From Chloroflexota bacterium (GTDB taxonomy: Bacteria; Chloroflexota; Dehalococcoidia; Lucifugimonadales; UBA3495): a stretch of DNA of 51,489 nt. This document shows, in pieces, positions 20,623 to 24,876 of this stretch; position 1 is the stretch's first letter, and the number at the start of each line of letters is the position of its first letter. Location: positions 1-51,489 of the forward strand of contig JAPPGG010000001.1 in assembly GCA_028875055.1 (NCBI GenBank), written 5' to 3'. The notes beneath the pieces are model-generated. The model ran no database searches. It was not told the DNA's origin and was given only the letters and a program-made list of their open reading frames with translations. The position numbers and the translations under genes are program-made.

Positions 20623-22398
<1,776 letters not shown>

Positions 22399-22451
22399 CA
22401 CGGCAGCGCCTGGTACACGCTGCCGCACAATCAATATAGTCCAGAAGCCAT

Positions 22452-22496
22452 ACGAAGAACCACGAAAGCGCAAGTTGCAATTTCGTGGTTCTTCGT
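22452..22496. terminator. perfect 16-bp hairpin after thiC, built from CTTCGTG repeat words
   Basis: Bases 22452-22467 pair perfectly with 22481-22496 around a 13-base loop, and GTTTATAT follows. It lies 54 bases past the thiC stop and may terminate that transcript. Its right arm carries TTCGTGGTTCTTCGTG, related to the repeat blocks at 544-578 and 23743-23777, so it also looks like a repeat-family member at the edge of the next two-gene insert. Confidence 0.6.
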
Positions 22497-22565
22497 GTTT
22501 ATATGGGAAACAGTTGTAGAGCGATTTTGCAGTGGGGAAAAGTCCTTTGCCGGAGACACTTGGAT

Positions 22566-23318
22566 ATGCCAGAACTATCAGTCCTGTCCCTCAACGTCAA
22601 GAAAGCACTTAACTTTCTTGACGAGAAACCAGAGTCGTCACTGGGAAACGCTACTGCGATTGTCAGCGTTCTTGGAGAGGATTTAGGAGCGGCCACCTTT
22701 CAGCACTGCCTTGAAGCAAATGGAGCTGGTAAGGTCTTAGTGCGAACGGAACCGGTAGGAACCGGAAAGCGGAAAGGGCCGCTCCTAGACCGATGGATTG
22801 AGGCCGACTTCGAAGGCAAGAGGTATCTCTTCCAGACCGAAATCAAGAGTTGGTCTGCCCATGCTATAGGTGGTAAGAAGGTGTCTTTATGTGCAACAAG
22901 AGCGCAACTCTTGGAGGAAAAGCGGCGAAACTGGGGCAAAGTGTGGGACCCTATAAACAAGAGCCTGAGTAATAAGTTGGTTGCAAAAGTATTGGTACCG
23001 ATGAAACCGCCGAAAGATGCCGAGAGTCGGGAAATCCTGCCATTACTAATTTTCTGGTACCCAATTGGCCTCGGAAGCAGGTCTCAAGGGCGGCAGCTAG
23101 CTAAGGGTGGCCACCTGTTCAGTATTCCCAACCCCACCGCCAAAACCAACAGCGATGTATTTCCTTGGCCGGAACATGGCGACTTTCCGGAACTTTGGGT
23201 ATTCTCGGTATCCAGCTATCTCCGCAGCTTGAGAAAAGAAGTGATAGAACTGGAAATGCCGCAGGCCTCCGCCCGATTGCGGGCATTGACTAGAATGGTA
23301 CGAATAGCAGACGGTTAA
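22566..23318 (+). CDS. unknown protein with a PD-(D/E)XK nuclease-like motif
   Basis: This is a 250-residue protein not recognised by name. The N-terminal part reads like a PD-(D/E)XK fold: Glu38 in 'VLGEDLGAATFQHCLEANG' (helix before the core), then Asp75 in 'LLDRWIEAD', then Glu92-x-Lys94 in 'YLFQTEIKSWSA'. That order and spacing match restriction-endonuclease-like proteins. The rest ('LPLLIFWYPIGLGSR', 'ELWVFSVSSYLRSLRK') is unassigned. The ATG at 22566 was chosen with GGAG about 9 bases upstream; an earlier ATG at 22503 falls beside the repeat hairpin. Base composition is visibly less GC-rich than the flanks. It is 31 bases from a retropepsin-like gene. The fold call is inference. Confidence 0.6.
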   Translation: MPELSVLSLNVKKALNFLDEKPESSLGNATAIVSVLGEDLGAATFQHCLEANGAGKVLVRTEPVGTGKRKGPLLDRWIEADFEGKRYLFQTEIKSWSAHAIGGKKVSLCATRAQLLEEKRRNWGKVWDPINKSLSNKLVAKVLVPMKPPKDAESREILPLLIFWYPIGLGSRSQGRQLAKGGHLFSIPNPTAKTNSDVFPWPEHGDFPELWVFSVSSYLRSLRKEVIELEMPQASARLRALTRMVRIADG

Positions 23319-23349
23319 GTTTGAAAGGGTGCGGCATTTGGGGTGTTCA

Positions 23350-23751
23350 ATGGCTCATTTCACCGTTCCAATAGAAATCTTCTCCCCCGACGGCAACCGT
23401 TCCGTCGCCATTGACGCTATGGTTGACACCAGGAACTGCTTTTCTTGCCTGCCGGGATCCTTGCTACGGCAACTTGGCGTAGTACCCATTCGCCGCATTG
23501 AGTGTGAGTTGGCCGACGGTAGTGTGGTGGAAAACCAAATAGGCGAGGTTAAGGTTAAGCTACAAGGAAGCGAAACCACGACCATTGCGATTTTCGGATG
23601 CCATTCAGACCCAGTTAAGCTAGGCCACTTGACCTTGACTGGCGCCATGTTGACTGTGGCTCCCGATCGTACCAATTTGGTACCCGCAAGATTCAAGCAC
23701 ATATCTCGTCCGGTGATGATAACGGAAAGTAACAAAATTGGGCCTTCGTGA
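23350..23751 (+). CDS. retropepsin-like (clan AA) protein with an altered active site
   Basis: This is a 133-residue single-lobe aspartic-protease fold. 'IDAMVDTRNCFSCLPGSLL' is in the place of the family's VDTGA..S.LP, followed by 'RRIECELADGSVVENQIGEV', 'GHLTLTGAMLTV' and 'TNLVPARF'. The catalytic D-T-G is D-T-R here, so the flexible active-site Gly is lost and protease activity is doubtful. The ATG at 23350 matches where related small proteins begin; a GTG at 23329 is the alternative. It probably forms a two-gene unit with the nuclease-like gene upstream. Confidence 0.65.
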   Translation: MAHFTVPIEIFSPDGNRSVAIDAMVDTRNCFSCLPGSLLRQLGVVPIRRIECELADGSVVENQIGEVKVKLQGSETTTIAIFGCHSDPVKLGHLTLTGAMLTVAPDRTNLVPARFKHISRPVMITESNKIGPS

Positions 23752-23777
23752 TCCTTCGTGCCTCTTCGTGGATAAAC
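23743..23777. repeat. CTTCGTG triple repeat, second copy
   Basis: Three CTTCGTG units spaced 10 bases apart end in GGATAAACT. This is nearly the same as the block at 544-578. It lies between the retropepsin-like gene and the Gfo/Idh gene and marks the right edge of the insert-like pair. Confidence 0.6.
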
Positions 23778-23796: not shown

Positions 23797-24876
23797 ATGC
23801 AAAAGCAAGACCTGGGCGTCGCCGTTGTCGGTTCCGGCCGCATTGGCACCCTCCGCGCCAACATGGCTTCCCGCCACCCTTCCGTACGTTTCCTCGCCGT
23901 ATCCGATATCGACGCCGAGAAGGCCGGAATGCTGGGAGAGCAGGTCAATGCCGACCTCACCTCCAGCGACAACTACCGCATCATTTCCGACCCCCAGGTC
24001 AACACTGTCGTGATTTCAACCCCCGAGCACGAGCATGTCGAACCCATCCTGCAGGCCCTGGAACTGGGGAAGCCTGTGTTCGTCGAGAAGCCCCTGGCCC
24101 TTACCCTGGACGACACCGACAAAATAGTAGAGGCGGTTGACCGCACCGGCGTTGAGCTCCGCATTGGCTACTCCCGCCGCCACGACCGCCGCTGGATGCT
24201 GGCCCGCGAACAGGTGGCCCAGGGCAGGCTGGGCGGCATTATTGGCATCCAGTCCCGGGTGTACAACTCCCGCGCCCACATGATGGAAATCCTCAAGCGT
24301 TCACCCGAAGCCACTCCCGTTTTGGACGCTCTTACCTATTACGTGGACATGGCCTGCTGGTACCTGGACGACGTCCGTCCCGTGGAGGTCATCGCCCGGG
24401 GCAATTACGGGCTGTACAAGGATATGGGCCACGACATCCACGACGTTACCTGGGCCATCATTACCTTTGAGAACGGCTGCCTGGTTAACCTGGGCATATG
24501 CTACGCCCTGCCGGCCCGCTACCCCACCTATGGCCAGAGCGCCCGCTTCGAGGTGCTGGGTGAGGACGGCGTGATAGTTCTGGACATGGACAACAAGGAC
24601 AGTTTCCTGTTCACCGACAAGGGTGTGCCCCACGCCTATGTGCCCGATCATTATGTGGACGCCCTGTTCATGCAGAGCAACTCATCGGGCGACTGGGCGA
24701 TGGGCGAGTACTGGGGCCCCATCGCCAACGAGACCCGCTCCTGGCTGGACCACCTTTCCGCCGGTACGCCCTGCTCCCACACCACGGCCCGGGAAGGCCG
24801 CCGCACGGTTGAGGTGACGCTGGCCATCGAGGAGGCCGCGCGGACGGGACTGCCGGTGAAACTGTCGGGGCGATAG
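23797..24876 (+). CDS. Gfo/Idh/MocA-family oxidoreductase
   Basis: This 359-residue NAD(P)-dependent dehydrogenase has the N-terminal Rossmann loop 'GSGRIGTLRANM' (about residues 11-22) and the family motif 'VFVEKPLALT' with Lys. 'RIGYSRRHDRRW' leads into the C-terminal alpha/beta domain, where 'LDALTYYVDMACWYLDD' carries the usual Asp near the substrate site (the family often has His at the following turn). It resembles inositol 2-dehydrogenases, but the substrate is open. AAAGGAG lies 8 bases before the ATG at 23797. Confidence 0.9.
   Translation: MQKQDLGVAVVGSGRIGTLRANMASRHPSVRFLAVSDIDAEKAGMLGEQVNADLTSSDNYRIISDPQVNTVVISTPEHEHVEPILQALELGKPVFVEKPLALTLDDTDKIVEAVDRTGVELRIGYSRRHDRRWMLAREQVAQGRLGGIIGIQSRVYNSRAHMMEILKRSPEATPVLDALTYYVDMACWYLDDVRPVEVIARGNYGLYKDMGHDIHDVTWAIITFENGCLVNLGICYALPARYPTYGQSARFEVLGEDGVIVLDMDNKDSFLFTDKGVPHAYVPDHYVDALFMQSNSSGDWAMGEYWGPIANETRSWLDHLSAGTPCSHTTAREGRRTVEVTLAIEEAARTGLPVKLSGR

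Follow-up and report, generated by a model that had tools for sequence, protein, structure and literature searches.

Do two neighbouring genes in a Chloroflexota genome, one nuclease-like and the other protease-like, form a single mobile unit, or did they come to share an intergenic gap independently? The question arises from contig JAPPGG010000001.1 of assembly GCA_028875055.1, of which we analysed a stretch of 51,489 nucleotides, hereafter the window (contig C10 of a 3.75-Mb draft genome). P1 (22566–23318, 250 amino acids), a rare putative nuclease resembling the PD-(D/E)XK superfamily, is followed on the same (forward) strand and after 31 bases by P2 (23350–23751, 133 amino acids), a probable member of the clan AA (retropepsin-like) aspartic protease family in which DTR replaces the catalytic DTG motif. 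The two genes are sandwiched by thiC and a GFO/IDH/MocA family oxidoreductase (the dehydrogenase below). A first-pass annotation had described this arrangement, with which the open reading frames and flanking families agree, and had read the pair as a repeat-bounded cassette. The reading we prefer, at a probability of roughly 0.6, is that each gene has its own history: P2 has long occupied the site and has lost its DTG motif, and P1 is a later, solitary and mobile gene that would encode a restriction-type defence nuclease.

Site history across relatives

The flanks of the site, both on the forward strand, are conserved at the matching locus in relatives: thiC on the left (20638–22398; Pfam ThiC_Rad_SAM, E=1.4e-194) at 90–96% identity and the oxidoreductase on the right (23797–24876; Pfam E=1.1e-21) at 93–98%. 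Two genomes of the same genus (G004 and G001) and one from another genus of the family (G007) encode thiC, P2 and the oxidoreductase in this order, with P1 absent, and G002 has at this site a hairpin only, with neither P1 nor P2. The remaining genome of the genus (G003, the fifth) is uninformative, since its thiC is incomplete and lies at the end of a contig. P1 occupies the site in the window genome only, where the distance from the hairpin to P2 is ~850 bases, compared with ~40 in relatives. This comparison of loci in G001, G002, G004 and G007 indicates that the hairpin and P2 are old and that P1 was inserted between them; on these sequences, P2 is vertically inherited and ancestral to the thiC–dehydrogenase gap, and P1 is a later addition. 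The converse, loss of P1 in every relative instead of a gain in the window genome, is possible and less economical. The first-pass view of the site as one that had received an insert thus holds for P1, which is missing from it in all four relatives, and fails for P2, which is present without P1 in three of them and absent only in G002.

The composition of the two genes had also been taken to set them apart, and they are indeed less rich in guanine and cytosine (GC) than the flanking genes (51% each vs 62–63%; at third codon positions 53–56% vs 81–82%). Shared low GC, like the close same-strand spacing, is what a two-gene cassette would lead one to expect. Because P2 is low in GC also in relatives that lack P1, this feature is no sign that the two genes arrived jointly.

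Hairpin and CTTCGTG repeats

A hairpin with CTTCGTG-type arms in the gap between thiC and P1 (22450–22498) and three CTTCGTG direct repeats upstream of the dehydrogenase (23744–23770, forward strand, partly overlapping the P2 stop) had been proposed as the boundaries of the insert. Both elements exist. They do not delimit an insert, because an equivalent hairpin occurs at the same site with P2 alone (G004 and G007) and with neither gene (G002), and because a CTTCGTG repeat precedes the dehydrogenase in G004 too, where P2 stands without P1. Similar repeats are dispersed across the genome, including at 544–570 of the window. A repeat-bounded cassette was accordingly rejected as a candidate, the left element predating P1 here and the right one being a dispersed motif.

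The hairpin is strong (−35.7 kcal/mol for 22430–22520, z = −6.85 by RNA folding) and may be a thiC terminator or a dispersed palindrome. Its stem is maintained in three of the related loci (L007, L008 and L046), with at least one two-sided paired change (ACC/GGT vs ATC/GAT in L007). The triple direct repeats at 544–570 and 23744–23770 both end in CTTCGTGGATAAAC. Searches of the locus found no tandem repeats, no match to RNA families and no sigma-70-like promoter, and terminator-like matches were not above chance.

Adjacency of P1 and P2-family genes

If P1 and P2 worked as a pair, they would be expected to keep company elsewhere. Of the eight P1 loci, two have a P2-family gene no more than 1 kb away, namely the window and one locus in genome G906 (L066), and P1 has no such neighbour at the other six; P2, for its part, stands alone in G001, G004 and G007. 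At L066 the neighbour is a remnant of a different P2-family gene ~0.5 kb from P1, in reversed order relative to the window and with no DTG motif. P2-family genes are plentiful in these genomes, and from their copy numbers we estimate that ~0.1 such neighbourhoods would be expected among the eight loci. With the window set aside, since it was chosen for its pair, we estimate a chance of roughly 8% that at least one of the other seven loci would have a P2-family neighbour. The L066 pair counts weakly in favour of a cassette, and its reversed order, different P2 and missing motif count against one. A literature search for defence systems joining a retropepsin and a nuclease found nothing relevant. 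Overall, two loci with opposite gene orders make linkage unconvincing, and the cassette claimed in the first-pass annotation does not survive the combination of a vertically inherited P2 and a P1 that has a P2-family neighbour at only one of seven other loci. The two genes most likely became neighbours in the window through a chance insertion.

Signature residues of P1

P1 contains the signature by which PD-(D/E)XK membership is recognised, namely D...(D/E)-x-K plus a preceding acidic residue, in the form of E38, D75 and E92-x-K94 (numbering that agrees with an ATG at 22566). Six intact members of the P1 family, which share ~41–51% identity, have 55 invariant columns, and these include all four residues that the first-pass annotation had singled out from P1 by their order and spacing. 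When columns were shuffled, the full E..D..(D/E)xK pattern fell on invariant columns in 0.2% of shuffles. P1 most likely cleaves DNA with the help of metal ions, as a nuclease of the PD-(D/E)XK type. By analogy with the known chemistry of the superfamily, E38, D75 and E92 would bind metal ions and K94 would position or activate the attacking water.

Distribution and surroundings of P1

Of 250 genomes searched by profile within one Chloroflexota order, six carry P1, at eight loci in total: the window, G032, G025, three loci in G906, G922 and G919. Samples of the class (393 genomes) and the phylum (400 genomes) contained no further member, and phage, plasmid and viral collections gave no match. 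At two of the eight loci P1 is broken or decayed. P1 has no constant partner; the only neighbours that recur across loci are transposase-type and transport genes.

Genes for transfer RNA (tRNA) lie near P1 at four of the eight loci, a raw count, uncorrected for how many tRNA genes each genome has. The distances are 24 bases to tRNA-Val (L065), ~1.3 kb to tRNA-Phe (L066), 1.5 kb to tRNA-Met (L069) and 2.1 kb to tRNA-Ile (L041). Two loci have defence-type surroundings. The decayed copy in G919 is close to an AIPR gene and a phage-type integrase, and in G922 P1 adjoins a protein resembling the N-terminal part of PDC-S02, with a type I methyltransferase and a GmrSD C-terminal-like protein some kb away. 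On contig VXOI01000116.1 (L004, 5196–6702) a P1 homologue is divergent from a neighbour that matches only the first half of the defence candidate PDC-S02; this contig and that of the G922 copy are apparently the same, both being 23,816 bases long and identical across the stretch compared.

A ~1,016-base unit containing P1 alone is present twice in G906, and one copy is interrupted by transposase genes. At L067 (6863–11889, contig C1 of G906) P1 is split into three pieces by two transposase-bearing insertions, and a near-identical intact copy is found elsewhere in the genome. The G025 homologue (L003, 1483–2613) has an in-frame upstream extension of ~135 residues that matches no family and may be a fusion or merely an open frame.

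P2 and its clan AA family

The suggestion that P2 is retropepsin-like and possibly inactive is a reasonable one. Against TIGR03698, a model for clan AA aspartic proteases, P2 aligns at 102 of 107 positions with E=2.6e-7 and scores 30.9 bits, under the cut-off of 57.35. Its closest homologues score better than P2 itself with this model and with two Pfam models for aspartic proteases. Where the G007 orthologue and most paralogues have the catalytic DTG, the window protein and its G004 and G001 counterparts have DTR. Because the catalytic DTG became DTR, P2 is probably an inactivated member of the family that no longer cleaves. An AlphaFold model of P2 alone has a mean predicted local distance difference test (pLDDT) score of 30.0.

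The family is present in 10–11 copies in the window genome and in up to 28 in one relative, and viral contigs gave no match. Several relatives, such as G016 (L042–L045), contain ~20 or more copies. In G000 copies are located on contigs C1, C5, C36, C42, C49, C58, C62 and C73. The copies frequently form tandem runs of two to four, and some contain in-frame stops or lack DTG.

Weighing the explanations

Under the preferred reading of separate histories, P2 would be a long-standing copy of a lineage-wide, multicopy clan AA family in the thiC–dehydrogenase gap, in which the change from DTG to DTR within this genus probably abolished cleavage. P1, a single gene of ~0.8 kb, would have been gained afterwards in the window genome only, landing between the hairpin and P2. 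Working without a partner, it would serve as a restriction-type defence gene that passes from one genome to another by inserting at plastic sites, frequently close to tRNA genes, and then decays. This kind of gene fits P1 best because P1 is solitary, sporadic and decaying and because two of its loci are in islands with defence-type genes.

Several results weigh against this reading. The AlphaFold prediction for P1 (two sequences) has a mean pLDDT of 35.5 and leaves the fold unconfirmed; the helix at 26–51 and strands at 57–60, 77–82 and 85–90 of this low-confidence model fit a PD-(D/E)XK core and are unreliable, including the placement of E38 in a helix. Compared by hhalign with the UPF0102 nuclease family, the P1 profile showed no significant similarity, and P1 has no accepted match in Pfam, NCBIfam or PADLOC. 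The Protein Data Bank likewise contains no sequence match. New PD-(D/E)XK families are usually missed by profile-similarity methods (PMC1913061). The surroundings suggest a defence role at only two of eight loci. At the P1 junctions we found no target duplication (direct repeats of at least 6 bases) and no inverted repeats of at least 7 bases, so no mechanism of movement is apparent from them. Finally, the second proximity of P1 to a P2-family gene, at L066, leaves slight room for linkage.

A more ambitious form of the preferred reading, which we consider doubtful, would make P1 the founding member of a new PD-(D/E)XK family: solitary, mobile defence nucleases confined to one Chloroflexota order, whose conserved C-terminal half recognises modified or foreign DNA and whose genes insert preferentially beside clan AA protease genes and in the vicinity of tRNA genes.

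The likeliest alternative, though improbable, is that P1 is a freestanding selfish gene of the homing type, which would spread by cutting empty sites and play no part in host defence. Its sporadic distribution and solitary, partnerless state would suit such an element, as would a duplicated ~1-kb unit that is otherwise empty; the insertion sites seen, however, are intergenic and never within conserved genes, and two copies lie amid defence-type genes. It is quite unlikely that P1 is instead an orphan remnant of a type II restriction-modification system that has lost its methyltransferase. The nuclease-like signature is compatible with such an origin, and the sole Pfam hint for P1 is to the type II enzyme Tsp45I (PF06300; E=0.3, 11 bits vs a cut-off of 25, in one of six members), over residues 61–101 and hence spanning the D75–K94 region. 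Against this, among the open reading frames read at the eight loci none beside P1 encodes a cognate type II methyltransferase, the only methyltransferase found is of type I and several genes off (in G922), and an active type II enzyme without protection would be toxic. It is very improbable, lastly, that the two genes form a mobile or defence cassette and that P2, as a protease-fold protein, regulates or acts together with a P1 nuclease; this proposal is largely refuted by the relatives whose site holds an ancestral P2 and no P1.

The site history thus removes the supposed nuclease–protease system. The interest that remains is modest and lies in an unnamed putative nuclease family, missing from the protein-family libraries searched, and in a multicopy retropepsin-like family of these Chloroflexota that has lost its catalytic motif in some copies.

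Comparison with known systems

The P2 family comes closest to known clan AA proteases. TIGR03698 matches all ten proteins aligned, P2 and nine homologues, and the Pfam models gag-asp_proteas or Asp_protease_2 match 8 of them. P2 departs from the TIGR03698 family in scoring below curated cut-offs and in having DTR for DTG, a substitution common to the G004 and G001 orthologues.

P1 differs from PD-(D/E)XK families in having no significant sequence or profile match to a named family and in its unconfirmed predicted fold, and it resembles the type II restriction enzyme Tsp45I only weakly and stands without a methyltransferase partner. The arrangement of the upstream Glu, Asp and E-x-K of the superfamily (which includes Hjc, UPF0102/YraN and type II and IV restriction enzymes) is nevertheless paralleled by E38, D75 and E92-x-K94 of P1. 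In Hjc the corresponding residues are E9, D33, E46 and K48, and the spacing from D to E is 13, close to the 17 of P1 (PMC1913061). Relative to these enzymes, P1 has in addition a conserved C-terminal half, marked by the motifs W-D, KVL, FW and LW-FS-S-YLRS.
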